A DNA stretch of 44,567 bases from an uncultured Clostridium sp. Its GTDB lineage: Bacteria; Bacillota; Clostridia; Lachnospirales; Lachnospiraceae. Location of the stretch: contig CAMNRM010000041.1 of assembly GCA_946553025.1 (NCBI GenBank), positions 1-44,567 of the forward strand, given 5' to 3'. The translations under genes were made by a program, and so were the position numbers. Shown here one piece after another: positions 5,178-44,567 of this stretch; the stretch's first letter is position 1; every line of letters begins with the position of its first letter. A model generated the notes under the pieces. That model was not told the DNA's origin. It was given only the letters and a program-made list of their open reading frames with translations, and searched no databases.

Positions 5178-5254
5178 CGTATTTGGAATACCTGAATGAA
5201 TGCCGCTAATCGGCGGCGGACTTTGAAAATAAGGACAGAAGCGAGGGAAAGACG

Positions 5255-6061: not shown

Positions 6062-6065
6062 CAGA

Positions 6066-6165
6066 TAATGGGGTAAAAGATAAAGAGATAAAAATAAAGG
6101 ATAAAAATAGAAGATGAAAATAAAAGATGAAAATAAAAGGTAAAAATAGAGGGAAAGGTTATTTG
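6066..6165. repeat. Purine-rich, degenerate short tandem repeat
   Basis: Almost uninterrupted A/G/T-without-C sequence made of variants of GATAAAAATAAAG and AGATGAAAATAAA; two copies of the 13-base AGATGAAAATAAA are adjacent near 6110-6140. It lies in the intergenic space after the SDR gene. No coding potential seen. Confidence 0.5.
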
Positions 6166-6207
6166 GCGTTATTAAACAGTTAAAGTAATCAATAAAAAGG
6201 ATGAACC

Positions 6208-7879: not shown

Positions 7880-7907
7880 CGTTGCTGTGAACGTATGAAC
7901 AGAAATA
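7880..7907. repeat. Short hairpin repeat, degenerate copy
   Basis: CGTTGCTGTGAACGTATGAA followed by CAGAAATA. The left arm is identical to the copy at 27746-27773, while the right arm has drifted (CAGAAATA instead of CAGTAACG), so the stem is broken. Confidence 0.55.
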
Positions 7908-7946
7908 AGTTCTCTTTTTATGAAGAAAATTTCTGACACATGAAGG

Positions 7947-7975
7947 TTGACATCTTTTCCGGCAAACGGTATAGT
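7947..7975 (+). promoter_or_regulatory. Strong sigma-A promoter for trpS
   Basis: Perfect TTGACA at 7947-7952, a 17-base spacer, and TATAGT at 7970-7975, 67 bases before the chosen trpS start. No T-box consensus or terminator-antiterminator was seen in the short leader. Confidence 0.85.
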
Positions 7976-8041
7976 AGGTAGAGAAAAAGCGAATTAGGAA
8001 AAACAAAAGCAAATACTTTACGCGATTGGAAGGAAATGAAT

Positions 8042-9133
8042 ATGGGAAAAATTATTTTAACTGGGGACAGACCCACGGGAAAACTTCATATAGGGCATTA
8101 TGTCGGCTCGTTAAAGCAGAGGGTGAAGCTGCAAAATTCAGGGGAATATGACGAGATTTTTATTATGATTGCGGATGCACAGGCGTTGACGGATAATGCG
8201 GACAACCCGGAAAAGGTGCGTCAGAACATTATCGAAGTGGCTCTGGATTATCTGTCGGCAGGATTAGACCCGCAAAAGTCTACCCTGTTTATCCAGTCGC
8301 AGATTCCTGAACTTTGTGAACTGTCCTTTTATTATATGAATCTGGTCACGGTATCGCGGCTTCAGCGCAATCCTACGGTGAAGTCGGAGATTCAGATGCG
8401 GAATTTTGAAACCAGTATCCCGGTTGGCTTCTTTACCTATCCCATCAGCCAGGCGGCGGATATTACGGCATTTCAGGCGACGACGGTTCCGGTCGGGGAA
8501 GATCAGATGCCGATGATTGAGCAGACCAGGGAAATTGTCCATAAATTTAATACGGTTTACGGGGAAGCGCTGACGATGCCGGACGTCCTTCTTCCCGATA
8601 ATAAAGCATGTATGCGTCTGCCCGGCACGGACGGCAAGGCGAAGATGAGCAAGTCTTTGGGAAACTGTATCTATCTTTCGGATACGGAAAAGGATGTACA
8701 GAAAAAGATTATGTCCATGTACACCGATCCTAATCACCTGCGCGTGGAAGATCCGGGATGCATCGAGGGGAATACCGTGTTTATGTATCTGGATGCATTT
8801 TCCACGGAAGAACATTTTGCAAAGTATCTGCCGGAATATAAGAATCTGGATGAGTTAAAGGCCCACTACCAGCGCGGCGGTCTGGGGGATGTAAAGGTGA
8901 AAAAGTTCCTGAATAAGGTTTTGCAGGAGGAGCTTGAACCTATCCGTCAGCGCAGGAAGGAATTTGAGCAGGATATTCCGGCGGTATATGAGATTTTGAA
9001 AAAGGGCAGTGAAAAGGCGAAAAGGAAAGCCGAACAGACCTTGGCGGGCGTTAAGCGGGCAATGCGGATTAATTATTTTGAGGATGCAGAATTAATCGCT
9101 GCACAGGCAAAGCAGTTTCAGGCGAAAGAATAG
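8042..9133 (+). CDS. trpS: Tryptophanyl-tRNA synthetase
   Basis: 363 residues from ATG 8042. An ATG two codons upstream (8036) sits only 2 bases from GGAAGG, while 8042 has the normal 8-base spacing. Class I synthetase signatures: the HIGH-type [15 protein letters not shown] at about 14-28 and the KMSKS loop [11 protein letters not shown] at about 200. [19 protein letters not shown] is the tryptophan-site region conserved in TrpRS. It charges tRNA-Trp in the cytoplasm. Length is slightly above the usual ~330 residues owing to a lysine-rich helical C-terminus. Monocistronic by context, with a strong promoter before and a hairpin terminator after. Confidence 0.95.
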
Positions 9134-14770: not shown

Positions 14771-16057
14771 ATGACAAAAATAAAAGGATTAATTCCCGGA
14801 TTTGGCTGCAGGGAAGGAAAAGCGGTTTGCCGGGAGGACGGACAGGTTGTGGAATATACGGAGGCAGTTTCCCTCTGTCGGCATTGGAGCAATAATGGGG
14901 CGGATCAGCTTTTGATTTATGATCTGGCAGAACAGGAGGCCGATCACGAAAGGACGATTCATTGCCTGAAGGAAATTGTACGGGAAATTGATGCACCGGT
15001 GATTGTCGGCGGCTGGGTTAAGCGTCTGGAAGATGTGAAAAAATATCTTTATGCCGGGGCTTCGGCTGTTTTTCTGGACGGCAAAAATGAAGAAAATATT
15101 GACTTAATTAAAGAAGCCTCCAACCGCTTCGGCAGTGAAAAAATCAATGTGTTTTTATCGGATGCACGGCTTCTTTCCCGGGCAGAGGAATTTATCCAGC
15201 TGGGGGCTTCAAGATTGATTTTGGACTGTGATTTCAGCATACGGGAACTGAAGCGCATTTCGGATATGGGAATCCCCTGCCTGATTGCCTGCGAACATAA
15301 AGAAGAAGAGCTGGTGATGTCCTGCTTTCAGTCGCCGGAGGTGGAGGGCATTGTCCTTCCGGCAAAAAAGGGCGAGAACTGGATGGAGTTAAAACAGACC
15401 TTAAAGGCCCGGGGAGTTGCGGTAAATACGCTGGAAAGCGATATTGCGTGGAACCGGTTTAAGTTAAATAAAGACGGGCTGATTCCGGTAATTGTACAGG
15501 ACTATAAGACCAGTGAAGTTCTGATGTTAGCTTATATGAATGAAGAGGCTTTCCGCCAGACGCTGGAAACGGGAAGGATGACTTACTTTAGCCGGAGCCG
15601 GAATAAGCTGTGGTTAAAAGGCGAAACTTCCGGGCATTTCCAGTATGTAAAATCCCTTCGCTTAGACTGCGATCAGGATACGATTCTGGCAAAAGTTCAT
15701 CAGATTGGAGCGGCCTGCCATACGGGGAACCGAAGCTGCTTTTTTACGAATTTGGTGGAGAAGGAGTATAAGGAAAGCAATCCGCTAAAGGTGTTTGAAG
15801 ATGTCTATTCCGTGATTTTGGATCGCAAGGCAAACCCGAAAGAGGGTTCGTATACCAACTATTTATTTGATAAGGGAATCGATAAGATTTTAAAGAAATG
15901 CGGCGAGGAGGCAACCGAGATTATTATTGCCGCAAAGAATCCCGACCCGGAAGAAATCAAGTACGAAATTTCTGATTTTCTGTACCATGTGATGGTGCTG
16001 ATGGCGGAAAAGGGGATTAGCTGGGAAGAGATTACGAGGGAATTGGCAAATCGTTAA
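14771..16057 (+). CDS. Fusion of a degenerate HisF-like barrel with HisI and HisE
   Basis: 428 residues, about twice the size of HisIE. Residues 1-225 read as a HisA/HisF-type barrel: [15 protein letters not shown] aligns with the HisF start but replaces the catalytic LDVKDG aspartate by Gly12. [18 protein letters not shown] aligns with the PxxVGGGI loop with GGGI changed to GGWV, and [14 protein letters not shown] aligns with the HisF C-terminus. Residues ~230-335 are phosphoribosyl-AMP cyclohydrolase (HisI) with metal-binding D299, D301, D303 and zinc cysteines C300, C316, C323 ([10 protein letters not shown]). Residues ~340-428 are phosphoribosyl-ATP pyrophosphatase (His[31 protein letters not shown]). 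HisI and HisE look intact; the barrel probably lacks HisF activity. Last gene of the operon. Confidence 0.88.
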
Positions 16058-18603: not shown

Positions 18604-19812
18604 CTATTCGTCCCCGCTTGCCTTAAAGTTATAGATGGGGCGGATAATCTCCTGGATTTCGGCGGTGACATCGATGTTTTGAACGATATCCTCCATCGTC
18701 TTATACGCCATAGGACATTCATCCAGTGTCCCGGCATTGACGGAGGTGGTGTAGATGCCCTTCATCTGTTTTTTAAATTCCGATACGGTGAAGGACTGCT
18801 TTGCCGCAGATCGGCTCATTAACCTGCCTGCTCCGTGGGGCGCGGACTGGTTCCAGTCGTCGTTTCCTTTGCCGACACAGATCAGCGATCCGTCGCGCAT
18901 ATTGATGGGAATCAGAAGCTTTTCTCCTTTTTTTGCGGATACTGCCCCTTTTCTTAAGATCATGGCGTCGGTATCGATGTAATTGTGCACGGTGGTAAAC
19001 TGCTCTACGACATGCAGCTTCATTTCTTTGATCAGTTCATCCATCATTGCCTGGCGGTTTAAGCGGGCGTAGGTCTGGACAATCTGCATATCGTGAATGT
19101 ACTGTTCAAACAGTTCCCCCGACACATAGGCGAGGGTTTTGGGAATTTCGGTTTTTTTGCTGCGCTTTAATGCACGCAGGCTTTTTTGTATCTGCTTTTC
19201 CTTTCCCTGTTCCCGTAATTCGGCAATCAGCGCGTCCACTTCCCGCTTGTCCGGTGCGTTTAACCGGTTATAGCCTTCTTCCTGATAATAGGCGGCAACC
19301 TCCAGGCCAAGGTGACGGCTGCCGGAGTGGATAACGATGTAGATATTGCCTGCATTATCCTTATCCACCTCAATAAAATGGTTTCCGCCGCCCAGCGTTC
19401 CCAGGCTTTTTTCTGCCCGGTCGTGGTTGATCTGGGGCCAGCAGTGAAGATTCATTAAGTTGATTTGTTCAAAATACCGATGCGTCTTTTCTCGGACATC
19501 AAAGCCGGAAGGGATTTTCTGATAGATCACCTTATCGAACTTTTGCAGTTCCAGATGTTTTTCCTTTAATTTTACCGTTTCCATCCCGCAGCCGATATCC
19601 ACGCCGACCAGGTTGGGGACGACTTTATCCGTTATCGTCATCGTCGTCCCAATCGTACAGCCCGCTCCAGCATGGATATCCGGCATCATCCGTATCCGGC
19701 TCCCTGCGGTAAACTCCTGATTCAGCAGAAGTGTTACCTGGACAATGGACGCTTCATCGACCACATCGGTAAATATCTTTGCTTCATTATATTTTCCTTT
19801 TACTTCGAGCAT
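18604..19812 (-). CDS. rtcB: RtcB-family RNA ligase
   Basis: 402 residues, in the short RtcB range. Blocks in order: RMMPDIHAGAGCTIGTTMT, then VGVDIGCGMETV with the metal-binding C75, LGTLGGGNHFIEV, IVIHSGSRHLG, and SAPHGAGRLMSRS near the end, where H326 is the expected guanylylation histidine. RtcB joins RNA 2',3'-cyclic phosphate or 3'-phosphate ends to 5'-OH ends using GTP and manganese, repairing cleaved tRNAs and other RNAs. No RtcA cyclase or RtcR regulator lies nearby. The start follows AGGAGGGTAA. It sits 40 bases downstream of the acetyltransferase in the same direction, so they may share a transcript. Confidence 0.93.
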   Translation of the reverse strand: MLEVKGKYNEAKIFTDVVDEASIVQVTLLLNQEFTAGSRIRMMPDIHAGAGCTIGTTMTITDKVVPNLVGVDIGCGMETVKLKEKHLELQKFDKVIYQKIPSGFDVREKTHRYFEQINLMNLHCWPQINHDRAEKSLGTLGGGNHFIEVDKDNAGNIYIVIHSGSRHLGLEVAAYYQEEGYNRLNAPDKREVDALIAELREQGKEKQIQKSLRALKRSKKTEIPKTLAYVSGELFEQYIHDMQIVQTYARLNRQAMMDELIKEMKLHVVEQFTTVHNYIDTDAMILRKGAVSAKKGEKLLIPINMRDGSLICVGKGNDDWNQSAPHGAGRLMSRSAAKQSFTVSEFKKQMKGIYTTSVNAGTLDECPMAYKTMEDIVQNIDVTAEIQEIIRPIYNFKASGDE

Positions 19813-32365: not shown

Positions 32366-33868
32366 ATGAAAGAAATAAAAGGGAAAAACACAAAAAAGCC
32401 GCAGGTTTATGCAACTGCGGCTTCAAAAACAAATACAAAGAGCCAGGGACAGCTTGAAGAAAACAGAAAAGACAGCGGAAGGTTATTTGGCGGGGATAAG
32501 GAAAGGCTGAACGAGGGCGGCAGGGCATTTGGCGGGAATAAGGAGAGTTTGAACGAGAGCGGCAGGGCATCTGGCGGGAATAAGGAAAGGCTGAAGGACG
32601 GCGGCAAAGCATTTGGCGGAAGAAGGGAAAATAACGCCGATGTACGGGAAAAAAGGATTACGGAAACAGGACTGCAGAAAAAAGGTCTGGAAAAAACGGA
32701 GCATGGAAGCAAAGGGACGAAATTATGTCCGTCCGCCGGGCGCTGCGGGGGCTGCCAGCTAATTCACCTTCCCTATAAAAAACAACTGGAACGAAAGAAA
32801 AAGAAGCTTGAAGACTTACTTCGCGGGATCTGCACGGTTTACGGGATGGAGGGAATGGAAAATCCCTGGCATTACCGCAATAAGGTTCACGCCGTCTTTG
32901 ACCATGATCGAAAAGGAAATCCGATTTCCGGGATTTATGAGGCGGGAAGTCATCGGGTGGTTCCGGTAGATCACTGCCTTTTGGAAGATGAGAAGGCAGA
33001 TGAAATTATTGTGACGATTCGGGAATTATTAAAATCCTTTAAGATCCGTACATATGATGAAGATACCGGTTATGGGCTGCTCCGCCATGTTCTGATACGG
33101 AAAGGATTTTTCAGCGGGCAGATTATGGTCGTTTTGGTTACGGTTTCCCCTGTCTTTCCTTCCAAAAGCAATTTTGTCCGGGCATTGCGGGAAAAACATC
33201 CGGAAATTACGACCATTGTTCAAAACATTAATGAGCGCAATACCAGTATGGTTCTGGGAAAACGGGATCATATTTTCTTTGGGCGGGGATTTATCGAAGA
33301 TTATCTCTGCGGCTGCGTATTTCGGATTTCTCCGCAGTCCTTTTATCAGATTAATCCGGTGCAGACCGAAAAGCTGTATCAAAAGGCGCTTAAACTGGCT
33401 GACCTTCATGGGGATGAAACCGTGATTGACGCTTACTGTGGGATTGGAACCATTGGCATTATTGCGGCGAAGCAGGCAGAAAAGGTTATCGGCGTGGAAT
33501 TAAATCCCGAAGCCGTGCGGGATGCAATAAATAATGCAAAAATAAATCATATCCAAAATATCCGTTTTTACTGCAACGATGCCGGGCGGCTGATGCGGGA
33601 GATGGCAGAAAGCAGGCAGAAAGCCGATGTGGTCATTATGGACCCGCCCAGAAGCGGGAGCACAGAAGAGTTTATGGATGCCGTAAAGGTTTTAGGGCCC
33701 CGAAAGGTTATTTATATCTCCTGCGGGCCGGAAACACTGGCGCGGGATCTGCAGTATTTTCACAAGCTGGGGTATCAGGCGGACGGCGGATGGGGGTATG
33801 ATCTTTTTCCTGGAACGGAACATATAGAAGTTGTGACGTGTTTGCGGCAAATGGAAGGGAAGAAGTAA
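32366..33868 (+). CDS. rlmD: 23S rRNA (uracil-C5)-methyltransferase, RlmD/TrmA family
   Basis: 500 residues. The first ~105 residues are a disordered basic/Gly-rich region containing 14-residue repeats (separate entry), not part of the usual enzyme. The [4Fe-4S] cysteines are C121, C127 and C130 (CPSAGRCGGC), with a fourth probably in VDHCLLED. The SAM domain has DAYCGIGTIGIIAAKQA, IGVELNPEAV and VVIMDPPRSG; catalytic C453 is in YISCGPETLARDL. It makes 5-methyluridine in 23S rRNA; RlmD versus RlmCD (U747/U1939) specificity is unresolved, and RlmCD is the common Firmicute form. The ribosome site GGAG lies inside the end of the upstream gene. Confidence 0.9.
   Translation: MKEIKGKNTKKPQVYATAASKTNTKSQGQLEENRKDSGRLFGGDKERLNEGGRAFGGNKESLNESGRASGGNKERLKDGGKAFGGRRENNADVREKRITETGLQKKGLEKTEHGSKGTKLCPSAGRCGGCQLIHLPYKKQLERKKKKLEDLLRGICTVYGMEGMENPWHYRNKVHAVFDHDRKGNPISGIYEAGSHRVVPVDHCLLEDEKADEIIVTIRELLKSFKIRTYDEDTGYGLLRHVLIRKGFFSGQIMVVLVTVSPVFPSKSNFVRALREKHPEITTIVQNINERNTSMVLGKRDHIFFGRGFIEDYLCGCVFRISPQSFYQINPVQTEKLYQKALKLADLHGDETVIDAYCGIGTIGIIAAKQAEKVIGVELNPEAVRDAINNAKINHIQNIRFYCNDAGRLMREMAESRQKADVVIMDPPRSGSTEEFMDAVKVLGPRKVIYISCGPETLARDLQYFHKLGYQADGGWGYDLFPGTEHIEVVTCLRQMEGKK
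32477..32623 (+). repeat. 42-bp coding tandem repeat (3.5 copies) in the rRNA methyltransferase
   Basis: Units start at 32477, 32519 and 32561, with a partial unit from 32603. They encode GRLFGGDKERLNEG, GRAFGGNKESLNES and GRASGGNKERLKDG, then GKAFGG. DNA identity between units is high, including synonymous positions, pointing to recent slippage or unequal exchange. The frame is preserved because 42 is a multiple of three. Confidence 0.9.
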
Positions 33869-33880
33869 AATTTAGTCAGA

Positions 33881-33909
33881 TTGCAAAACTCACTTTAGTT
33901 GATTATCAA
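33881..33909 (+). promoter_or_regulatory. Weak candidate promoter of the hsd operon A
   Basis: TTGCAA at 33881-33886, 17 bases, TATCAA at 33904-33909, just before hsdR. Only four of six matches at each box. Confidence 0.35.
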
Positions 33910-33934
33910 ATACTTAAATGAAAGGTATTGCAAT

Positions 33935-36900
33935 ATGAAAAACGAAAAGCAAATAGAAACCAGTTTTATTAAAAAGCTTGTAGAGTTAAAATATACTTAC
34001 CGTGAAGACATTAAGACAAAAGCAGCACTGGAAGAAAATTTTCGGAATCATTTTCAAAATCTAAATCGAGTCAAGCTAAGTGATTCAGAATTTCAAAGAT
34101 TGAAAGAAATGATTATTACTCCCGACGTATTTGCAGCAGCAAAAATCCTAAGAGAAACCAATACGTTTAAACGTGATGATGATACACCATTACAATATAC
34201 TTTAGTAAATACTGCTGACTGGTGTAAAAATGAATATGAAGTTATAAATCAGCTTCATATCAATACAGAAACCAATTATCATCGTTCCGACGTAATCCTT
34301 CTTATTAATGGTATTCCTACGGTTCAAATAGAATTAAAAGCATTGGAAATTATTCCTAAAAGAGCAATGGAACAGGTGGTTGAATATAAAAATGATCCTG
34401 GTAATGGATTTACCAATTCTTTGCTTTGTTTTATACAACTTTTTATTGTAAGTAATGAGAGTAATACTTATTATTTTGCAAATAACAATAAAGAACATTT
34501 TAATTTTAATGCGGATGAGGGTTTTTTACCTGTTTACCAGTTTGCAGATAAAAAAAATAAGAAAATTTCCTGTCTATATGATTTTTCTGAAACATTATTG
34601 CGCAAATGTGCTTTAGGAGAATTAATTAGCAGATACATGGTTTTAGTGGCGAATGAACGAAAAATGATGATTATGCGGCCTTACCAAATTTATGCAGTTA
34701 AAGCAATCATTGACTGTATCAATGAAAATCGGGGAGATGGCTATATTTGGCATACTACGGGAAGCGGAAAGACTCTTACTTCCTTTAAGGCATCAACATT
34801 ATTAAAGGATAATCAAAATATAGCAAAATGTCTTTTTGTTGTGGACAGAAAAGATCTTGACAGACAAACAAGAGAAGAATTTAATAAGTTTCAGGAAGGC
34901 TGTGTTGAAGAAAATACAAACACGGACACTCTGGTAAAACGCCTTATTTCTGAAGATTATCGTCATAAGGTTATTGTAACAACGATTCAAAAACTTGCAT
35001 TGGCATTAAATGAAGATAATAAAAAAAGCAGAGAAAGGAAGAAAAAGGGAGAGTTGGCCTATAAAGAACAGCTTGCTCCTTTAAAAGATAAAAGGATAGT
35101 GATTATCTTTGATGAATGTCATCGTTCGCAATTTGGAGAAAACCACAGAGCAATTAAAAATTTTTTTCCGAAGGCTCAGCTTTTTGGCTTTACAGGAACG
35201 CCTATTTTTGAAAAAAACGCAACGTACAGGAAAATTGACGGCACTATAGGTTCTTATAAAACAACAAAGGATATTTTTAATAAAGAACTTCATGTATATA
35301 CAATTACAAATGCGATTGATGATAAGAACGTGCTGCGTTTTCATGTTCACTATTTTAAACAGAAAAAGAATAAGGACGATAATATCTCAAAAATAAATGA
35401 GGAAACAAATAAACGGGCTGTGGTGCAGACAATCTTATCGAAACATGATATAATAACTAATGAGCGAAGATATAATGCTATTTTGGCAACAGCTTCCATT
35501 AATGATGCCATTGAATATTATGAATTGTTTAATACAATGCAAAAAGATTTTTCAAAAAACAACAGCAATTTTAAAGCATTAAATATAACCTGTGTATTTA
35601 CTCCTCCGGCGGAAGGAAATAAAGATGTTCAGCAAATCCAGGAAGATCTTCCGCAAGAAAAGGAAGATAATAAAAAAGAACCTGCAAAAAAGAAAATTGC
35701 ACTTTCAAAAATTATTGACGATTATAATAAAAAATATAACACAAATTATGACATTAATAATTTTGACGGATATTATCAAGATGTTCAGCAGCGGATTAAA
35801 AATCAAAAATACACTAACATGGATTATCCGCATAAAAATAAAATCGATATTACCATTGTTGTCGATATGCTGCTGACAGGATTTGATTCTCAGTATTTAA
35901 ACACCTTGTATGTTGATAAAAATTTAAAATATCATGGGTTAATACAGGCTTTTTCGAGAACAAATCGAGTCCTTAATGATACAAAACCGTATGGAAATAT
36001 CTTTGATTTTAGAAATCAGACAGAAGAAGTGGATCGTGCTATTGCACTTTTTTCCGGTGAAGATACCAACAGACCTCCAAAAGAAATCTGGCTTGCTGAA
36101 CCTGCATCTGAAGTTGTCGAAAAACTGGGCACGGCAATGGCTGAACTGAAAACGTTTATGGAATCTCAGGGGCTGGAATGTAATGCAGAGGAACTGAGTA
36201 ATCTTAAAGGAAACTTGGCACAATGTGCATTTGTTCATAAGTTTAAAGAGGTTCAGCGACTAAAAGTACAACTTGAACAGTACACGGAAATCGAAGAGAA
36301 AGACAGGAAAAAAATGGAAGAACTGCTTCCGGAAGATTATATGCGTGCATTTCGTGGAGCCTATATGGATATTGCCCGAAAGTTAAGATCTGAACAGGGA
36401 AAAGATTTTACAAATAAAAATGCTGAAATAGAGCAGCTTGACTTTGAATTTGTTTTGTTTTCCTCAGCCATTATTGATAATGATTATATTATGGCACTTA
36501 TTGCAAAATATACACAGGAAGAGCCTCAAAAACAAAAGATGAGTAAAGAACAGCTGATTCAAATGCTTTCTGCAACATCTAATCTTCTTGATGAGAGAGA
36601 AGTTATTGTTGAATATATTCAGTCACTTCCGACAGGAACAGTTATGAATGAAAATGAAATCAAATTAGATTTTCAAAAATTTAAAGAACAAAAAAGCAAC
36701 CAAGAAGTTCGTGCTCTTGCCGAAAAACATGGGATTGCAGAAGAAGAAATGCAGGCATTTATTGAAAAAATTATTGAACGGATGATTTTTGATGGAGAAG
36801 AACTAAGTGATTTGCTGAATCCACTTAATCTAAGCTGGAGAGATAGAACAAAAAAAGAACTGGATTTGATGGAAGATTTAATTCCACTATTAAAAAAAAT

Positions 36901-36943
36901 GGCCAATGGCCGCGAAATTATGGGGCTGAATGCATATGAGTAA
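33935..36943 (+). CDS. hsdR: Type I restriction enzyme R subunit (system A)
   Basis: 1002 residues from ATG 33935, behind AAAGG; an ATG 12 codons upstream lies on the candidate promoter. The N-terminal nuclease centre is D119...E133-L-K135 (RSDVILL, TVQIELKALE), a PD-(D/E)xK site. The SF2 translocase follows: Walker A TTGSGKT with K279, DECH at 393-396 in IIFDECHRSQFGE, FGFTGTPIF, and motif VI QAFSRTNRV. A helical C-terminus links to the methylase core. It translocates DNA with ATP and cuts at a distance when the target is unmethylated. The region is visibly more AT-rich than the preceding genes, suggesting horizontal acquisition. Confidence 0.95.
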   Translation: MKNEKQIETSFIKKLVELKYTYREDIKTKAALEENFRNHFQNLNRVKLSDSEFQRLKEMIITPDVFAAAKILRETNTFKRDDDTPLQYTLVNTADWCKNEYEVINQLHINTETNYHRSDVILLINGIPTVQIELKALEIIPKRAMEQVVEYKNDPGNGFTNSLLCFIQLFIVSNESNTYYFANNNKEHFNFNADEGFLPVYQFADKKNKKISCLYDFSETLLRKCALGELISRYMVLVANERKMMIMRPYQIYAVKAIIDCINENRGDGYIWHTTGSGKTLTSFKASTLLKDNQNIAKCLFVVDRKDLDRQTREEFNKFQEGCVEENTNTDTLVKRLISEDYRHKVIVTTIQKLALALNEDNKKSRERKKKGELAYKEQLAPLKDKRIVIIFDECHRSQFGENHRAIKNFFPKAQLFGFTGTPIFEKNATYRKIDGTIGSYKTTKDIFNKELHVYTITNAIDDKNVLRFHVHYFKQKKNKDDNISKINEETNKRAVVQTILSKHDIITNERRYNAILATASINDAIEYYELFNTMQKDFSKNNSNFKALNITCVFTPPAEGNKDVQQIQEDLPQEKEDNKKEPAKKKIALSKIIDDYNKKYNTNYDINNFDGYYQDVQQRIKNQKYTNMDYPHKNKIDITIVVDMLLTGFDSQYLNTLYVDKNLKYHGLIQAFSRTNRVLNDTKPYGNIFDFRNQTEEVDRAIALFSGEDTNRPPKEIWLAEPASEVVEKLGTAMAELKTFMESQGLECNAEELSNLKGNLAQCAFVHKFKEVQRLKVQLEQYTEIEEKDRKKMEELLPEDYMRAFRGAYMDIARKLRSEQGKDFTNKNAEIEQLDFEFVLFSSAIIDNDYIMALIAKYTQEEPQKQKMSKEQLIQMLSATSNLLDEREVIVEYIQSLPTGTVMNENEIKLDFQKFKEQKSNQEVRALAEKHGIAEEEMQAFIEKIIERMIFDGEELSDLLNPLNLSWRDRTKKELDLMEDLIPLLKKMANGREIMGLNAYE

Positions 36944-38207
36944 GGACAAAAAAATAATTCCTAAATTAAGATTTCCCGGATATTACCTTGAATGGAGTTC
37001 CATGAAATTTGATTTTGAATTTTTACCAACAAACAATTTTTCAAGAGCTGAAATGAATGATTGTAAGGGTAATGTAAAAAATATTCATTATGGGGATGTG
37101 CTTATCAAGTATAATCATATTTTAAACAATACATTATCGATTCCCTTTATTAATGAAAATATAAATTTATCTAAATTTAAAAAGGAAAGTTATTTACAAA
37201 ACGGAGATATTATTATTGCTGATACTGCCGAAGATTTAACTGCTGGAAAAGCGGTAGAGGTTCAAAATATTGATTTCCCTATTTTGGCAGGACAGCATAC
37301 CTTTTTGTGCAGACCTAAAATGAAATTTGCTCCTAGGTTTTTAGGGTATTATTTTAATTCATCAGCATATCATCATAAATTAATACCTTTGCTTACAGGC
37401 ACAAAAGTCTATTCAATAAGTAAAGAAAATATAAAAAATACGTTAATTCTATATCCTAAAAACAATGAAGAACAGCAAAAAATTGCAGATTGTTTATATT
37501 CTGTAGATAATCTTATTGATGCAGAAAGCCGGAAATTGACGGCATTAAAAAAGTACAAAAAAGGGGTGATGCAAAAATTATTTCCTGGTGAAGGTGAACT
37601 TCTGCCTGTATGGAGATTTCCTGAATTCCAAAATCCTGGAGATTGGAAGTATGAGGAAATAAATAATATCGGAGAGGTAATTACCGGAAAAACGCCTTCA
37701 ACATCCGATTTATCTCTATGGAATGGCGATATACAGTTTGTAACACCTACCGATATTACAGAAGAAAAATATCAGCATCATACGCAAAGAACTGTTGTAA
37801 AAACACCAAAAATTAAAATATTACCCCCTTATACAATAATGTTTACTTGTATTGCTTCTGTTGGAAAAATAGCATTATCTGTATATCCCTGTATTACAAA
37901 TCAGCAGATTAATTCGATTATTCCCGGAAAAAATTATTATAATGAATTTGTATATTATTCATTATTGGGGAAAACATTTTCTGTCAAAAAACAATTGGCC
38001 AATACAACATTACCAATAATAAACAAAACGGATTTTTCAAAAATAAAAATTCCTGTAACTTTAAATGTAAAGGAACAGCAAAAAATTGCGGATTGTTTAT
38101 CAGAAATAGATTGTCTTATTACGGCTCAAACTAAAAAAGTTGAATATTTAACAACACACAAAAAGGGATTAATGCAAGGTTTTTTCCCTTCTTTAGAGGA
38201 GAACTAG
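36936..38207 (+). CDS. hsdS: Type I restriction specificity subunit S (system A)
   Basis: 423 residues from ATG 36936 (another in-frame ATG lies at 36930). It overlaps the hsdR stop by 8 bases with no clear ribosome site, implying coupled translation. Two target-recognition domains (about 1-170 and 205-380) each end in a repeated conserved helix: EEQQKIADCLYSVDNLI...LKKYKKGVMQKLFPG and KEQQKIADCLSEIDCLI...TTHKKGLMQGFFPS. GEVITGKTPSTSDLSLWNGD opens the second domain. The two domains read the two halves of a split DNA target. The full-length gene looks intact. Confidence 0.93.
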   Translation: MSKDKKIIPKLRFPGYYLEWSSMKFDFEFLPTNNFSRAEMNDCKGNVKNIHYGDVLIKYNHILNNTLSIPFINENINLSKFKKESYLQNGDIIIADTAEDLTAGKAVEVQNIDFPILAGQHTFLCRPKMKFAPRFLGYYFNSSAYHHKLIPLLTGTKVYSISKENIKNTLILYPKNNEEQQKIADCLYSVDNLIDAESRKLTALKKYKKGVMQKLFPGEGELLPVWRFPEFQNPGDWKYEEINNIGEVITGKTPSTSDLSLWNGDIQFVTPTDITEEKYQHHTQRTVVKTPKIKILPPYTIMFTCIASVGKIALSVYPCITNQQINSIIPGKNYYNEFVYYSLLGKTFSVKKQLANTTLPIINKTDFSKIKIPVTLNVKEQQKIADCLSEIDCLITAQTKKVEYLTTHKKGLMQGFFPSLEEN

Positions 38208-38209
38208 GT

Positions 38210-39526
38210 ATGAGTATAAATATACCAGATAAGCTTACAAAAGAGGAATATAATAAACTGATAAATAAAAAATTAAATACATCAGATTTAGGAAGATATA
38301 AAAATGATATTAAGGAAAATTATAAAAGGCCAAAAGGTGGTACAGAATATTTTTTAAATGAAAGTTTGTCCGAAGAAGTACGGGAAAGACTAGATTATAT
38401 TTTCAAAAGAATAGGCGATAAACAATTTGACAGCTTAAAAAATGTTGCTAAATATTTGCGGATGTTGCTTGATGAAAAAAATTATATTATGCTGTTTGCT
38501 TATAATGGCACAGGAAAAACAAGATTATCCATGGAATTTAAAAAGTTGGGCCAGTTCATTGATGAAAAAACAGGGCAAAAGTCTATAGATACATTATATT
38601 ATAATGCATTTACAGAGGATCTTTTTTACTGGCATAACGATTTAACCTATGACAGGGACAGATATTTAAACTTTAATGGCAATTCAAAATTTTTTGATGG
38701 TCTAAAAGAGCTGGCGATTGAAAACAGAATTCGTCCGTTTTTAAATACTTATGCAGATTTTGATTTTAAAATTGATTATGACAAATGTAGAATTTATTTT
38801 TATCGGGATGTAATGATTTCTGAAGATAACCAGGAAATTGACAGTATTAAAATATCACGCGGAGAAGAAAATACATTTATCTGGTGCTTTTTTCTTGCAA
38901 TTATCCAAATGATTGCTGATGGAGTGGAAGCCTATAATTGGGTTAAATATATTTATATTGATGATCCTATTTCCTCATTAGATGATAATAATGTTATTGC
39001 TGTAGCAAGTAATCTGGCGAAATTGTTAAGTAATCAAAATATTAAAATAGTTATTTCTACACATCATACATTATTTTATAATGTATTGTGCAATGAAATT
39101 AACAAACCGGAACAGCTTTATTTTCAAAGAAAAGCAAAGAGTGAAAATTATCTCTTAAAAGATACCAGCAAAACTCCGTTTTTTTATCATATTGCTCTGC
39201 TAAAGGAATTAAAAGAAGTTTCAGAAAATGGAATATTATATACCTATCATTTTAATATTCTTCGTAATATATTGGAAAAAACAGCTTCCTTTCATGGTTA
39301 CAGGCATTTTTCATCATGTTTACGAAAAGGAAATGATGATAACTCTATTGTTTATACAAGAATAATCAATCTTTTAAGTCATGGAAATTATTCTGTTTTT
39401 GAACCAAAAGAAATGGTTGAAGAAAATAAAGAATATTTTCGGACAATATTAAATGATTTTTTAGACGACTATAAATTCAATAGAAATATATTTAAAACGG
39501 AGCAAATGCAGGAGGAAAATGAATGA
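38210..39526 (+). CDS. PrrC-like ABC ATPase, candidate anticodon nuclease, inside the hsd operon
   Basis: 438 residues. Walker A is AYNGTGKT with K103-T104, an ABC-like signature ISRGEENTFIW starts at S216, and Walker B plus D-loop is YIYIDDPISSLDD with D251-D252. The switch histidine is in ISTHHTLF (H285/H286). The IDDPISSLDD form is typical of the AAA_13/PrrC group. The C-terminal domain has R352-NIL-E356 in LRNILEKTASF and H391 in LLSHGNYS; R-x3-E...H is the arrangement proposed for the tRNA-cleaving site of PrrC (Arg320, Glu324, His356 in E. coli). PrrC is also encoded inside a type I locus and held silent by it. It lies 2 bases after hsdS and overlaps hsdM. Nuclease activity is inferred. 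Confidence 0.75.
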   Translation: MSINIPDKLTKEEYNKLINKKLNTSDLGRYKNDIKENYKRPKGGTEYFLNESLSEEVRERLDYIFKRIGDKQFDSLKNVAKYLRMLLDEKNYIMLFAYNGTGKTRLSMEFKKLGQFIDEKTGQKSIDTLYYNAFTEDLFYWHNDLTYDRDRYLNFNGNSKFFDGLKELAIENRIRPFLNTYADFDFKIDYDKCRIYFYRDVMISEDNQEIDSIKISRGEENTFIWCFFLAIIQMIADGVEAYNWVKYIYIDDPISSLDDNNVIAVASNLAKLLSNQNIKIVISTHHTLFYNVLCNEINKPEQLYFQRKAKSENYLLKDTSKTPFFYHIALLKELKEVSENGILYTYHFNILRNILEKTASFHGYRHFSSCLRKGNDDNSIVYTRIINLLSHGNYSVFEPKEMVEENKEYFRTILNDFLDDYKFNRNIFKTEQMQEENE

Positions 39527-41313
39527 ATGATACACATCAAAAACAATTAGGTTCAGCATTATGGGCAATAGCTGATAAACTGCGCGGAGCAATGAATGCA
39601 GATGATTTCAGAGATTACATGTTATCCTTTCTCTTTCTTCGTTATCTTTCAGACAACTATGAAGAAGCTGTAAAAAAAGAACTTGGCGGCGATTATCTGT
39701 TAAGCGAAAATGAAATAAAAAACAACAGCAATACTATGGATGCCTACAGAGAAGAACTTAAACAGGTTATTGTCGATTATAGTAATTCTCTTCCTTTAAA
39801 TAAATTAGGTTTAAGTAACGATGAAACCGATAATGAAAGAATTGAAAAATTAAGAAATGAAGTAATTGATGATTATAGTAAGATGCTTTACAGCCAAAAT
39901 ATCATTCCCCTTGCGGTTTGGTACATTCGGAATTTAGAATATGTGGAAATACTTGAAAAGCAAATGCGGCGTAAAATTCACTATGTAATAAGGCCGGCAT
40001 TTTTATGGAGTAATATCTATGAATTGGCACGAACTCAAAATAATGAATTACTGAAAATCTTACAAAGTGGTTTTAAATATATTGAAAATGAATCCTTTGA
40101 AAGTAAGTTTCGTGGTTTGTTTTCTGAGGTTAATCTTGATTCTGATAAATTAGGAAAAAATTATTCCGAGCGAAATGCTCTTTTGTGTTCAATTATTACC
40201 GAAATAGCAAATAGTTTATCCGAGTTTCCAAACGAAATTGATCTTTTAGGGGATGCTTATGAATATTTAATTGGACAATTTGCCGCAGGTTCAGGAAAGA
40301 AAGCTGGAGAATTTTATACACCACAACAGGTTTCTACGATTCTTTCACGTATTGTTACCCTTGACAGTCAAGATCCACGCAATGGAAAGAAAAGCAAGCT
40401 TAGAAATATTCTGGATTTTGCCTGTGGTTCAGGTTCATTATTAATTAATGTAAAAAAACAACTTGGTGCAAATGGTATTGGGCAAATCTATGGGCAGGAA
40501 AAAAATATAACAACTTATAATCTTGCGCGTATGAACATGCTGCTTCATGGATTGAAAGATTCCGAATTTCAAATTTATCATGGTGATTCTCTGCTTAATG
40601 ACTGGAAAATTTTAAATGAGATGAATCCTGCAAAAAAAATGCAGTTTGAAGCTGTCGTGGCAAACCCTCCATTTAGTTATCGATGGGAGCCTAAAAAAGA
40701 AATGGCAGATGATTTTCGATTTAAAAGTTATGGGCTTGCACCAAAATCCGCAGCAGATTTTGCTTTTTTATTACATGGATTTCATTTTTTAAGTAATGAT
40801 GGAACAATGGCTATTATTTTACCCCATGGAGTATTGTTCCGCGGTGGTGCTGAAGAAAAAATCCGGACAAAGCTTCTGAAGGATGGAAATATTGATGCGG
40901 TTATCGGTTTACCTTCTAATCTATTTTTTTCGACAGGGATTCCGGTTTGTATATTAGTACTTAAAAAATGTAAAAAATTTGATGATGTGTTAATCATTAA
41001 TGCGAGTGAAGGTTTTAAAAAAGAACGGCGTCAAAATGTACTTTTAAAAAAACATGTTGATGAGATTATTGACACTTATCAATATAGAAAAGAAGAGAAT
41101 AAAAAATATTCTCGCCGAGTTTCTATGGCTGAAATTGAGAATAATAAATATAATTTGAATATTTCACGCTATGTTAGTACAGCACCTGAAGAAGAAATTA
41201 TAAATATAGAAGAAGTATGTCAGGAACTTGAAAAGATAGAAGCTGAAATTAATAAAGCAAAATCAAATCACAATTATTTTTTGAAAGAACTTGGTTTGAA
41301 ATTACTTCCCTAA
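39523..41313 (+). CDS. hsdM: Type I DNA adenine methyltransferase subunit M (system A)
   Basis: 596 residues. The start ATGA overlaps the previous stop and has GGAGGAAAATGA before it. An N-terminal helical HsdM domain comes first (LGSALWAIADKLRGAMNADD, LSFLFLRYLSDNYEE). The N6-methyltransferase core has AGEFYTPQQVSTILSRI, motif I DFACGSGSLLIN from D298, and catalytic motif IV NPPF at 381-384. GTMAIILPHGVLFRGGAEEK and FFSTGIPVCILVLKK follow. With S it methylates the target adenines; with R and S it forms the restriction complex. The gene order R-S-x-M with M last is less common than M-S-R. Confidence 0.95.
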   Translation: MNDTHQKQLGSALWAIADKLRGAMNADDFRDYMLSFLFLRYLSDNYEEAVKKELGGDYLLSENEIKNNSNTMDAYREELKQVIVDYSNSLPLNKLGLSNDETDNERIEKLRNEVIDDYSKMLYSQNIIPLAVWYIRNLEYVEILEKQMRRKIHYVIRPAFLWSNIYELARTQNNELLKILQSGFKYIENESFESKFRGLFSEVNLDSDKLGKNYSERNALLCSIITEIANSLSEFPNEIDLLGDAYEYLIGQFAAGSGKKAGEFYTPQQVSTILSRIVTLDSQDPRNGKKSKLRNILDFACGSGSLLINVKKQLGANGIGQIYGQEKNITTYNLARMNMLLHGLKDSEFQIYHGDSLLNDWKILNEMNPAKKMQFEAVVANPPFSYRWEPKKEMADDFRFKSYGLAPKSAADFAFLLHGFHFLSNDGTMAIILPHGVLFRGGAEEKIRTKLLKDGNIDAVIGLPSNLFFSTGIPVCILVLKKCKKFDDVLIINASEGFKKERRQNVLLKKHVDEIIDTYQYRKEENKKYSRRVSMAEIENNKYNLNISRYVSTAPEEEIINIEEVCQELEKIEAEINKAKSNHNYFLKELGLKLLP

Positions 41314-41365
41314 ATAATATTTTGAGGATATGGGAGCGGGCGATATATTATAGGAGATATCAGAG

Positions 41366-41836
41366 ATGAATAGAAATGAATTGGTAGAATTATTAGCGGA
41401 AGAAATGTTATTTGAAGTTGTAGCATCAAAAATAGAAGAAGTGGATCAGATTCCACGGATGCTGGAAAGAATTGGTTATTTAGATAATGAAGAAGAAGCT
41501 ATTTCTTTAATCAATCACTGTGAAATTGACCTGGACTCTCTTGAAATAATTCAGTTTACGGTAGAAAATGGAAAGATTATTATTGAATTTGAAATACCTC
41601 TTTTTGGTGTAAGTGCATTTCATGATAGTCAGGGGATTTTAAAGGTTACGGCAAGTGCAACTGGAAAATGTTCAATCCCGGATATTGATGTATTTGACTG
41701 GGACGAAGCATTTGATTGGGAAAATGGAGTTTGGAGAGATGATTTTGATGAAGGGATAATTGAAATTATTGAACTGCAGTATACCGGTGAGTCCTGTGAT
41801 GATTGGCGTGCTATAGGATGGATGCAGCAGAAATAA
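41366..41836 (+). CDS. Highly acidic hypothetical protein next to hsdM
   Basis: 156 residues with about 37 Asp/Glu against about 10 Lys/Arg, a net charge near -27 by my count. N-terminal helical part (ELVELLAEEMLFEVVASKIE), then beta-rich stretches (IIQFTVENGKIIIEFEIPLF), then a very acidic segment VFDWDEAFDWENG...RDDFDEG. No signal peptide or membrane helix. ATG behind GGAGATATCAGAG, 52 bases after hsdM, so probably the tail gene of operon A. Family not recognised. The charge would fit a DNA-mimic or a partner of a basic protein, but many ordinary hypotheticals are acidic. Confidence 0.65.
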   Translation: MNRNELVELLAEEMLFEVVASKIEEVDQIPRMLERIGYLDNEEEAISLINHCEIDLDSLEIIQFTVENGKIIIEFEIPLFGVSAFHDSQGILKVTASATGKCSIPDIDVFDWDEAFDWENGVWRDDFDEGIIEIIELQYTGESCDDWRAIGWMQQK

Positions 41837-41907
41837 ATGAAGAAATTTGACGGGAAGTGTTTTATATTGGATTTAAAGAGAAAGCCAGATTATTGATAAA
41901 TTATTTG

Positions 41908-41930
41908 CGTTCGTAAATTATTTATGAACG
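41908..41930. promoter_or_regulatory. 23-bp palindrome upstream of hsdM of system B
   Basis: CGTTCGTAAAT-T-ATTTATGAACG: 11-base arms with a single mismatch around one base, just upstream of the -35 box at 41946. Length and symmetry suit a dimeric regulator's operator. There is no T-tract, so it is not a terminator. The rest of the 314-base gap 41837-42150 shows only the promoter below and no gene. Confidence 0.55.
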
Positions 41931-41945
41931 ATAGTTCACAGAAGG

Positions 41946-41975
41946 TTGAAAAACGTGCAAAAAGTGTGTTATACT
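41946..41975 (+). promoter_or_regulatory. Promoter of system B
   Basis: TTGAAA at 41946-41951, 18 bases, TATACT at 41970-41975, giving a leader of about 170 bases before hsdM. Confidence 0.6.
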
Positions 41976-42150
41976 CTTAAAAGTGCTTTACATACGGTTG
42001 CATATAGAAGAGCTGGGTTCTGCGATGTAAGATATAATGAGTAAAATATCACTACAGATGTGCTTATAAAGACACGTGAATATCTAAAGTGTGGTATTGC
42101 TGATATTGTGGAAATAGTCCCAGATGAATCATCAGAGAAGGAAAACTAAA

Positions 42151-43653
42151 ATGGCAGATAAAAATACAGCTGATATTGGCTTTGAAAAACAGATATGGGA
42201 TGCAGCCTGTGTGCTTCGCGGCAACATGGATGCATCAGAATATAAGAACGTCGTTCTGGGATTGATTTTTCTGAAGTATATCTCAGATCGGTTTGATGAT
42301 AAGTACCAGGAGCTTGTTGAAGAGGGCGACGGATTTGAGGAAGACATCGATGAATATACTTCTGAAGGCATCTTTTTTGTACCGGCGGGTGCACGCTGGA
42401 GAGAGATTGCAGCAAAAGCACATACACCGGAAATCGGTACAGCTATCGATGATGCCATGCGTGCTATTGAAAAAGAAAACAAACGTCTGAAAGATATTCT
42501 TCCTAAGAACTTTGCACGTCCGGAACTGGATAAGCGCAGACTTGGTGATGTGGTAGATTTATTCACCAATATTCAGATGATCGAACACGGCAGTGAGAAA
42601 GATATTCTGGGCCGTACTTATGAGTATTGTCTTTCCATGTTTGCAGAACAGGAAGGTAAACGTGGCGGTGAATTCTTTACTCCATCCTGCGTGGTACGTA
42701 CTTTGGTCGAAGTGTTAAAACCGTTTAAGGGCCGGGTATATGACCCTTGCTGCGGTTCAGGCGGTATGTTTGTCCAGTCGGCAAAATTTGTAGAAAACCA
42801 TAGCGGTAATATCAGCAATATCTCTATTTATGGTCAGGATTCAAATCCTACTACGTGGAAGATGGCACAGATGAACCTTGCGATCCGTGGTATTGAGCCG
42901 GATCTGGGAACTTATGCTGCTGATAGTTTTTTGGATGATCGTCATCCTACATTAAGAGCAGATTATATTATGGCCAATCCGCCATTTAATCTTTCAGATT
43001 GGGGCGCTGATAAATTAAAAGAGGACGTTCGCTGGCAGTATGGTATGCCGCCAGCAGGAAATGCCAACTTTGCATGGCTACAGCATATGATTTATCACCT
43101 TGCACCGGCAGGAAGAATCGGTATGGTACTTGCTAATGGTTCCCTGTCTTCTCAGTCAGGTGGTGAGGGTGAAATCCGTAAGAATATTGTCAATGCGGAT
43201 TTGGTTGAGTGCATTGTCGCAATGCCGACACAGCTTTTCTATACGACGCAGATTCCGGTTTCTCTTTGGTTTATCAATAAGCAAAAGAAACAATCCGGGA
43301 AGACTTTATTTATTGATGCCCGTAAGATGGGAACAATGGTAAGCCGCAAACTTCGTGAACTTACTGATGATGACATTAAGAAGATTTCAGACACCTATGA
43401 GGCATTTGTAGCCGGAACACTTGATGATGTGAAGGGCTTCTGTGCTGTTGCTGACCTTCAGGAAATTGAAAAACAGGACTTTATTCTGACACCGGGCAGA
43501 TATGTAGGTATTGAAGAAGTAGAGGATGACGGAGAACCGTTTGAAGAAAAAATGACACGCCTTACATCTGAGTTGTCGGATCTGTTTTCTAAATCTCACG
43601 AGTTAGAAGATGAAATTCGTAAGAAATTGGGGGCGATTGGGTATGAAGTGTAA
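42151..43653 (+). CDS. hsdM: Type I DNA adenine methyltransferase subunit M (system B)
   Basis: 500 residues from ATG 42151 behind AAGGAAAA; an in-frame ATG nine codons upstream lacks a site. DIGFEKQIWDAACVLRGNMD at the N-terminus, GGEFFTPSCVVRTLVEVLKP, motif I YDPCCGSGGMFVQSA from D198, and catalytic NPPF at 276-279 (MANPPFNLSDWG). TGRYVG near the end is the usual C-terminal block. It differs strongly from the system A methylase and has more balanced codon use, so the two systems are independent acquisitions. Its stop overlaps the start of an hsdS stub by 11 bases, the normal M-S overlap. Confidence 0.94.
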   Translation: MADKNTADIGFEKQIWDAACVLRGNMDASEYKNVVLGLIFLKYISDRFDDKYQELVEEGDGFEEDIDEYTSEGIFFVPAGARWREIAAKAHTPEIGTAIDDAMRAIEKENKRLKDILPKNFARPELDKRRLGDVVDLFTNIQMIEHGSEKDILGRTYEYCLSMFAEQEGKRGGEFFTPSCVVRTLVEVLKPFKGRVYDPCCGSGGMFVQSAKFVENHSGNISNISIYGQDSNPTTWKMAQMNLAIRGIEPDLGTYAADSFLDDRHPTLRADYIMANPPFNLSDWGADKLKEDVRWQYGMPPAGNANFAWLQHMIYHLAPAGRIGMVLANGSLSSQSGGEGEIRKNIVNADLVECIVAMPTQLFYTTQIPVSLWFINKQKKQSGKTLFIDARKMGTMVSRKLRELTDDDIKKISDTYEAFVAGTLDDVKGFCAVADLQEIEKQDFILTPGRYVGIEEVEDDGEPFEEKMTRLTSELSDLFSKSHELEDEIRKKLGAIGYEV

Positions 43654-43750
43654 ACTTGAAGAAATTGTAGAAGTAACAATGGGGCAATCTTCCAAATCCG
43701 AATACGATAAAACTGCATCTGCAAGAGTAGCTTGCCAGCAGGACAGATGA
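43643..43750 (+). pseudogene. hsdS stub, N-terminal 20-odd residues only (system B)
   Basis: A 35-codon frame starting inside the hsdM end reads KLEEIVEVTMGQSSKSEY, the classic opening of an HsdS target-recognition domain (xMGQSPxSEYYN). After about base 43703 the sequence stops being hsdS and becomes a recombinase remnant in another frame, and the frame ends at TGA 43748-43750. So the first specificity gene has been replaced from its 20th residue onward. It cannot supply a DNA-recognition domain. Confidence 0.8.
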
Positions 43751-44027
43751 TAATCCATCACTCTTTGTAAGATTGCGAGCGCCGTATGAACGGATAAAAA
43801 TTGGTGGCATGGAGTACTGCCTCCGCGAGATTGGCAAGTGGCTGAATATTCCGAAAGTGCATCCACATAAGTTCTGGCGGGCGCTGGCAACAATGGCGAT
43901 TAATAAAGGGATGCCCAAAGAACAGGTTCAGCAGCTCTTAGTGCATCAAAAGATAGGTACCACCATGTATTATGCGATGGTGAAGCAACAGAATGTGGAG
44001 TTGGAACATAGAAAATACATCAGATAG
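43704..44027 (+). pseudogene. Tyrosine recombinase remnant, C-terminal part, disrupted
   Basis: The frame in phase with the stop at 44025 reads KLHLQE, then TAG at 43728-43730, then LASRTDDNPSLFV, KVHPHKF, LATMAINKGMPKEQVQQLL and TTMYYAMVKQQNV. This is the catalytic C-terminus of the XerC-like recombinases often found beside hsdS genes. Lesions: the N-terminal two thirds are missing, a stop replaces the Tyr expected in LQEYL, and HKFWRALAT puts Trp where the HxxR arginine should be (normal HKFRRTLAT). LVHQ also replaces LGHx. The nucleophile Tyr (TTMYYAM) remains. An ATG at 43773 could give an 84-residue product, which would be inactive. Confidence 0.8.
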
Positions 44028-44037
44028 GAGCGCAAAT

Positions 44038-44567
44038 ATGGAACTTAAAGAATATAGGTTTGATGAAGTAACCATCAATTTTGATAAGAAGAGAGTTCCG
44101 ATTTCGGGTGCACAGCGAGAGAAAAGGCAAGGTAAGTATCGCTATTATGGTGCGCAAGGCATAATTGATTATATTGATGATTTCATCTTTGATGGGACAT
44201 ACCTTCTCATTGCCGAGGATGGCGAGAATCTTAAATCTCAAAAACAAAAAATCGCTCAAGTTGTTGATGGACAATTCTGGGTCAATAATCATGCTCACAT
44301 CGTGCAAGGCAACGAGCTATCTGATACTCGTTATCTTTGCTATTTGCTAAACAACATGGATTTGTCTGGATATGTTACCGGATCAGCACAGCCAAAATTG
44401 AGCCAAGCAAATTTGAATTCAGTTATACTACACCTTCCGTCTATCAGTGAGCAGCGGATAATTGTAGAGTATTTGTATATGTTCGACAAGAAAATTTCTG
44501 TCAATCAGCAGATAAACGATAATTTACAGCAACAAGCAGCCGCATTGTTTGAATCTTGGTTTGTCAA
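44038..44567 (+). CDS. hsdS: Type I restriction specificity subunit S (system B), 3' end cut by window
   Basis: 176 codons are visible with no stop before the window ends. ATG 44038 follows AGGAGCGCAAAT. It starts MELKEYRFDEVTINFDKKRV, then a target-recognition domain with YYGAQGIIDYIDDFIFDGTY, LIAEDGENL, FWVNNHAHIVQG, SAQPKLSQANLNSV and LPSISEQRIIVEYL. LQQQAAALFESWFV is the central conserved helix, so one recognition domain is complete and a second may follow beyond the window. It lies 10 bases after the recombinase remnant and is probably the working specificity gene of system B. An hsdR is expected further downstream. Confidence 0.9.
   Translation, partial: MELKEYRFDEVTINFDKKRVPISGAQREKRQGKYRYYGAQGIIDYIDDFIFDGTYLLIAEDGENLKSQKQKIAQVVDGQFWVNNHAHIVQGNELSDTRYLCYLLNNMDLSGYVTGSAQPKLSQANLNSVILHLPSISEQRIIVEYLYMFDKKISVNQQINDNLQQQAAALFESWFV

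Follow-up and report, generated by a model that had tools for sequence, protein, structure and literature searches.

PrrC is the classic tRNA-cutting guard carried on a restriction enzyme, and most of the work on it concerns one Escherichia coli protein, which accompanies the type I enzyme EcoprrI. A related system, PrrC170 of Klebsiella quasipneumoniae, was described in 2024 and was cloned as HsdR, HsdS, PrrC and HsdM plus a stretch ahead of hsdR. As excerpts of that paper report, the system stopped phages T1 and T7, overexpression of PrrC arrested growth, and tRNA sequencing pointed to tRNA-Lys as the target (PMC11555353). Here we analyzed a 44,567-nucleotide contig of an uncultured Clostridium sp. 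(the whole stretch is called the window below), in which a prrC gene at 38210..39526 on the forward strand lies in an operon of the order hsdR-hsdS-prrC-hsdM. We concluded with considerable confidence that its product is a PrrC anticodon nuclease guarding its own type I restriction-modification enzyme. The locus is a Lachnospiraceae representative of a second PrrC clade. Within that clade it belongs to a group with a conserved N-terminal domain of no known family and a charge reversal at the residue that, as deduced for E. coli PrrC, touches the wobble base.

Comparison with described PrrC systems

As the yardstick for E. coli PrrC we used a plasmid-encoded E. coli protein of 396 amino acids labeled ‘anticodon nuclease’ (NZ_CP116245; our locus L117), which carries D222, D287, R320, E324 and H356 at the numbers published for E. 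coli PrrC. The window protein resembles it in homology over the full length, in the same ATPase motifs and catalytic triad, and in its location inside a type I operon. The two differ in that identity is 35% (BLASTP, 372 columns), the E. coli order is hsdM-hsdS-prrC-hsdR, the extension is absent from the E. coli protein, and D287 stands where the window protein has K321.

PrrC170 is like the window locus in that its genes are listed in the same order. Its identity to E. coli PrrC is given as 35% in the excerpts (PMC11555353), and eight members of the window’s clade that we compared were 32–37% identical to L117; PrrC170 was placed in the clade by its gene list and this reported identity alone. 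The enterobacterial members of the clade (L005, L115, L116) lack the N-terminal extension, unlike the window protein. Because PrrC170, with the same listed order, is reported to be antiphage, the window operon is, as a functional type, a known kind of system and not a new one.

The prrC product and its motifs

The prrC frame is intact and opens with ATG. The PADLOC model for PrrC matched residues 71–435 of the product (E value 4e-132, 438.8 bits), its single match in the window’s own genome (4.87 Mb), and Pfam AAA_13 matched at 1.5e-13 (50.8 bits, cut-off 36). A profile of the window’s clade (80 rows, low diversity) was compared by hhalign with a second profile, built from four PrrCs of the E. 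coli type. The two aligned over 349 columns (E value 8.7e-67), and R352, E356 and H391 were paired with R320, E324 and H356. The features of the gene, all on the + strand, were as follows.

38210..39526, +, prrC, N-extended PrrC anticodon nuclease (predicted), 438 amino acids (PADLOC, hhalign, BLASTP)
38210..38407, +, N-terminal extension, residues 1–66, conserved (19 sequences; predicted structure)
38498..38521, +, Walker A, AYNGTGKT, residues 97–104, with K103 (alignment)
38594..38644, +, LYYNAFTEDLFYWHNDL block, residues 129–145, common to E. coli-type PrrC (alignment)
38855..38872, +, SRGEEN, ABC signature-like, residues 216–221, with S216 (alignment)
38948..38983, +, Walker B and D-loop, YIYIDDPISSLD, residues 247–258, with D251-D252 and YIDDPISSLD (alignment)
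39062..39064, +, H285, linchpin (switch) histidine (His in 93/94 sequences)
39161..39187, +, tRNA-recognition peptide position, residues 318–326, with K321 at 39170–39172 (alignment)
39185..39484, +, C-terminal helical nuclease domain (predicted), residues 326–425, probably HEPN
39263..39265, +, R352, triad Arg, E. coli R320 (94/94; pairwise to L117)
39275..39277, +, E356, triad Glu, E. coli E324 (94/94; pairwise to L117)
39380..39382, +, H391, triad His, E. coli H356 (94/94; pairwise to L117)

The comparison set held 94 PrrC sequences: 19 N-extended (the window’s included), 69 short and 6 E. coli-type. Eighty genome loci, out of 481 relatives, were fetched by peptide patterns and kept. One pattern covered Walker A and another a second block, so that their conservation is partly by construction; the triad residues lie outside both.

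The initial annotation had described a 438-residue ABC-type ATPase with K103, S216, D251-D252 and the adjoining histidines H285 and H286, followed by R352-x3-E356...H391 as a PrrC triad. All of these are present. The motifs of the ABC-type NTPase (Walker A, signature, Walker B/D-loop and linchpin His) align with those of PrrC and are conserved, and the triad Arg-x3-Glu...His occurs in every one of the 94 sequences, with an Arg-to-His spacing of 39 residues in the window protein against 36 in L117. Two of the checks named there, conservation of the triad across homologues and a C-terminal fold related to PrrC, came out in its favor, the second through the whole-length homology found by hhalign. 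Its label ‘PrrC-like’ was right about the relationship and too weak in degree: judged from its sequence, the product is a full-length PrrC. HEPN domains were among the best PDB matches of the predicted fold, with low Z scores.

The NCBIfam scan of the protein gave no PrrC match and weak ABC-transporter matches alone, the single-sequence search of PDB found no PrrC (best E value 0.012, to ABC transporters), and the profile search of PDB gave 0 matches at 0.01. No match of the protein was found by tblastn in 50,697 phage records. The LYYNAFTEDLFYWHNDL block is probably the 15-residue ‘PrrC box’. A ‘PrrC box’ is named as a feature of PrrC in excerpts of two papers (PMC2610378, PMC3014915).

A group of PrrCs with an N-terminal extension

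Of the 80 genome loci, 18 share with the window protein a recognizable stretch of about 66 extra N-terminal residues; the other members of the clade start near window residue 66. N-extended PrrCs are 429–444 amino acids long, and the 2008 survey gave lengths of 341–416 for PrrC (PMC2610378, excerpt). On a tree of 35 rows, built without the extension and without position 321, 18 of the 19 N-extended PrrCs grouped with support 100. The nineteenth (L052) had the short PrrC of an archaeal record (L055) as its partner, and a constraint holding all 19 together was not rejected (p = 0.16). By alignment and tree, then, the N-extended PrrCs are a distinct group within the clade, as the initial annotation had suspected from the N-terminus of the window protein.

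The extension was predicted confidently as a structure (block pLDDT, the predicted local distance difference test, 79–93). Pfam searches of the extension at E values up to 5 returned inconsistent weak matches alone, in three of four sequences, and none of 27 relatives on viral contigs matched the query ahead of residue 31. On a 93-row tree the E. coli-type sequences joined on the N-extended side. Because that attachment is weakly supported (46) and lies on long branches, the extension may be derived, or it may be ancient and lost elsewhere.

A coupling of the extension to an insert in HsdM (the window’s HsdM has 596 amino acids) was considered and rejected, since the distribution of the stretch does not match: it is present in full in the short-PrrC loci L006, L072, L075, L081, L083, L088 and L104, and absent in the N-extended loci L041, L046, L047 and L052.

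Exchange of prrC between restriction backbones

We compared the history of PrrC with that of its partners. The N-extended and short groups were defined from PrrC ahead of building the HsdM and HsdR trees, which were quick trees with grouping tested under one model. In the HsdM tree (80 rows) the PrrC types interleaved, with seven changes, at least five of them forced by well-supported branches. In an HsdM subset of 32 rows, grouping of the N-extended loci (15 vs 17 rows) was rejected, with a log-likelihood 425 lower (approximately unbiased [AU] test, p = 2e-4), and holding all 16 N-extended rows together gave p = 3e-10. The HsdR tree likewise rejected the grouping (15 vs 14 rows, AU p = 5e-71). 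Because HsdM and HsdR reject a grouping in which 18 of 19 PrrCs fall with support 100, there is clear evidence that prrC alleles were swapped between restriction backbones.

Individual pairs told the same story. The N-extended locus L048 and the short locus L074 share 91% identity in HsdR and 90% in HsdM, against 63% in PrrC; L048 and L044, both N-extended, share 91% in HsdM and 86% in PrrC. The window’s HsdM and HsdR are 83% and 79% identical to those of short-PrrC loci with the same gene order (Faecalicatena faecalis L075, Streptococcus orisratti L083). The PrrCs of these two loci are unlike the window’s: they are 58% identical to it, start at about window residue 66 and carry Asp at position 321. 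Compared with other N-extended loci, the window showed PrrC identities of 64–66% with HsdM at 79–80% and HsdR at 73–76% (L039, L040), and 68% with HsdM at 83% (L035).

Given this exchange between backbones, PrrC acts as an effector module that can be interchanged. A nearly unchanged HsdR and HsdM serving two different PrrCs, as in L048 and L074, amounts to a natural experiment, and such pairs make the silencing of PrrC and its choice of tRNA testable. Among the papers listed by literature searches, read as titles and abstract openings, none describes prrC allele exchange or an N-extended PrrC group.

The tRNA-recognition position

For E. coli PrrC, contact of D287 with the modified wobble base was deduced from mutants, and the recognition sequence is said to vary among PrrCs, whose substrates may vary (PMC3014915, excerpt). 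K321 of the window protein aligns with D287; the Asp is thus replaced. Lys occupies the position in 16 of 19 N-extended PrrCs, the others having Glu, Asn and Asp. Among the 69 short PrrCs it occurs once, and the remainder are Asp (34), Glu (14), Ala (9), Ser (5), Asn (3) and Gln (3). E. coli-type PrrCs have Asp in five of six and Arg in the sixth.

These counts (Lys in 16/19 against 1/69, with 48/69 short PrrCs acidic) and the reported variation of the recognition sequence are what one would expect if the target of the nuclease were not, or not only, tRNA-Lys, the N-extended group reading another anticodon or wobble modification through its Lys. Such a change of target is conceivable but, in our view, rather unlikely. 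Lys underwent four changes on the tree and marks essentially one group, with no independently repeated change and too few independent pairs for a test, and 21 of the 69 short PrrCs likewise have no acidic residue at position 321. Because the Lys is close to one historical event, it suggests a change of tRNA specificity and goes no further. Lys321 and the extension also delimit almost one and the same group, so neither is an independent test of the other.

We also asked whether Lys321 is matched to a wobble modification of the mnm5U pathway. The results did not support this: the presence of the enzymes did not sort with Lys. PF05430, which we take to be MnmC, was above cut-off in 6 of the 45 genomes searched, with 0/18 hosts of N-extended PrrC and the window’s genome among the negatives. 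PF06962, presumably MnmM, was found in 14 of 40 genomes (6/18 N-extended hosts and 8/10 Firmicute hosts of an Asp-type PrrC) and was not found in the window’s genome. These absences are weak because many of the genomes are draft or metagenome assemblies. An exact match to a pattern for a tRNA-Lys(UUU)-like anticodon arm occurs once in the window’s genome.

Proposed mechanism and remaining alternatives

For the window protein as a PrrC guarding its own enzyme, we infer the activity, the tRNA target and the role of suicide backup from the described systems. By analogy with E. coli, PrrC would be held silent on the HsdRMS complex until a phage inhibited or overloaded the restriction enzyme; the ABC ATPase head would then switch state, and this change would unmask the C-terminal nuclease. 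With R352, E356 and H391 the nuclease would cut the anticodon loop of a tRNA, by the precedent of E. coli PrrC and PrrC170 most likely tRNA-Lys(UUU), and translation and phage growth would be stopped. Our guess is that the extension tunes how PrrC docks on the restriction complex or is silenced there, and that Lys at the wobble-contact position tunes anticodon recognition.

A broader proposal, offered with low confidence, is that type I restriction systems use PrrC as a swappable effector module. The N-extended form would be a functionally distinct guard with its own way of sensing or docking on the restriction complex and, through its Lys, another specificity for tRNA or modification, and backbones would swap alleles to alter their second line of defense as phages evolved resistant tRNAs or repair of tRNA.

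The RNase activity of the window protein is a prediction, and its branch (0.35) ranks with the longer branches of the 35-row PrrC tree, as might be seen if PrrC had decayed or been repurposed into an ATPase subunit that aids the restriction enzyme but has lost the ability to cut RNA. We consider this very improbable, since the ATPase and triad residues are all intact, with the triad invariant in 94 sequences, the frame is open and the junctions are tight. Slightly less probable still is an RloC-like nuclease that senses DNA damage outside the control of the restriction enzyme: RloC shares the ABC head and a C-terminal R-x3-E...H motif, and hhalign to two RloC-like proteins gave a probability of 96.7 (E value 3.4e-10, 201 columns including the R-x3-E region), but PrrC is far closer (8.7e-67), the window protein has neither the CxxC zinc hook nor the coiled-coil insert that carries it and is 438 amino acids long against 727 (L007) and 733 (L008), and its clade is tightly linked to hsd genes, to which RloC is rarely linked (PMC2610378, excerpt).

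Gene order and distribution

The order of the window operon is the norm of its PrrC clade. An hsdM lies within 3 kb downstream of prrC in 86 of 87 loci other than the window; hsdS lies within 6.5 kb upstream in 84 of the 86 loci that extend far enough (of the two exceptions, L004 has an adjacent hsdS by annotation); and hsdR lies upstream in 66 of 68. About 0.7–2.3 kb separates prrC from hsdM in L061, L070, L071, L089, L093, L096 and L103. The four annotated E. coli-type loci have the order hsdM-hsdS-prrC-hsdR, one of them with a small gene ahead of hsdR, and a very diverged sixth E. coli-type sequence (L093b) sits in an operon of the other order. The initial annotation had tied the gene to a type I system and placed it between hsdS and hsdM. 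Both the tie and the placement held; linkage across the clade makes the tie stronger than a single sequence could show, and the order is no peculiarity of this locus.

Such systems are rare in the host family. Any match to the PrrC model was found in 27 of 397 genomes and a strong one in two, the window’s own and G148; the next best was 6.7e-17. Close relatives of the HsdM were likewise limited to these two genomes (100 and 83% identity), and the other matches listed for the family were at most 48% identical (202 of 394 genomes had any HsdM match). The PrrC of G148 (L006) is identical to that of F. faecalis L075 over the part compared.

Plasmid records with an HsdM match numbered 3,377, and in 44 of them the identity was 60% or more. 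Among the 60 rows listed, 43 have an HsdM identity of at least 59.5%; then comes a single fragmentary record (49%), and no other row exceeds 44.4%. In 30 of the 43 the match is overlapped by a gene annotated as an ATPase or anticodon nuclease. Two Arsenophonus nasoniae plasmids (L152 and L157, the two opened of five listed) carry hsdR-hsdS-hsdM of the same subfamily with the prrC slot empty. Hence prrC is dispensable to the restriction backbone.

Several single loci deserve mention. The resistance plasmid NC_019069 (L156) has an unannotated copy of prrC with a broken frame, and related plasmids have intact copies. A Halomonas locus (L093) has two PrrC homologues in one hsd operon (5181–6263 and 7893–9089), 33% and 56% identical to the window’s. 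A Candidatus Methanoperedens (archaeal) record (L055) has a PrrC of the clade at 7983–9116 beside hsdR, hsdS and hsdM, and this PrrC pairs on the tree with a sequence from an anammox bacterium.

Operon structure and neighboring genes

The remaining genes of the operon were as follows.

33899..36943, +, hsdR, restriction subunit of a type I enzyme, EcoR124/type IC kind (Pfam EcoR124_C, HSDR_N; TIGR00348; PADLOC REase_I)
36930..38207, +, hsdS, specificity subunit, overlapping hsdR by 14 bases (Pfam Methylase_S; PADLOC Specificity_I)
39523..41313, +, hsdM, methyltransferase subunit, 596 amino acids (TIGR00497; Pfam N6_Mtase)

HsdR matched EcoR124_C (PF12008, 5.3e-59), HSDR_N (3e-31), TIGR00348 above cut-off and PADLOC REase_I (1081 bits). 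Its listed start is TTG; translation could also begin at an in-frame ATG near 33935. HsdS matched Methylase_S in two stretches (1e-34) and PADLOC Specificity_I (1.7e-84), and HsdM matched TIGR00497 (371 bits, cut-off 243) and N6_Mtase (8e-105). EcoR124I is a type IC enzyme, and the set is complete and type IC-like, with an EcoR124-type HsdR C-terminus, an HsdM and a two-domain HsdS. The hsdS stop ends at 38207, leaving a 2-base gap to the prrC ATG, and the prrC stop overlaps the hsdM ATG (39523) by 4 bases. Because these junctions are tight, the four genes very likely form one transcript. Promoter-like sites (48 vs 41.7, standard deviation 6.2) and terminator-like sites (4 vs 3.3, standard deviation 2.1) in 33600–42200 were at background and so uninformative on this point. 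Ahead of the operon lies rlmD.

Right after hsdM, at 41366–41836 (+), an open reading frame of 156 amino acids is extremely acidic (isoelectric point 4.05, net charge about −27). Pfam, NCBIfam and PADLOC gave it no convincing family match, and a search of 149 other genomes from the family found no relative; within its own genome there was one weak second match of 26 residues. The DNA-mimic anti-restriction proteins ArdA and Ocr are similarly acidic, and a protein resembling them, placed between two type I systems, would be notable. A second, different type I system begins at 42124–44567 (+) and is cut by the contig end. The best PADLOC model for its hsdM differs from that for the hsdM of the first system, and an open-ended reading frame at 43993 resembles hsdS by eye, with no NCBIfam match.

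The window also holds rtcB at 18604–19812 (−), encoding an RtcB RNA ligase (PF01139, 4.1e-64), at a distance from prrC as had been remarked, about 14 kb ahead of the hsd operon. RtcB is able to heal some RNA breaks. The two genes co-occur in the window, and nothing in these data links them. Finally, a single open reading frame at 14771–16057 (+) contains a HisA/HisF-type domain (partial), HisI (PRA-CH) and HisE (PRA-PH) consecutively, a fusion of histidine-pathway enzymes.
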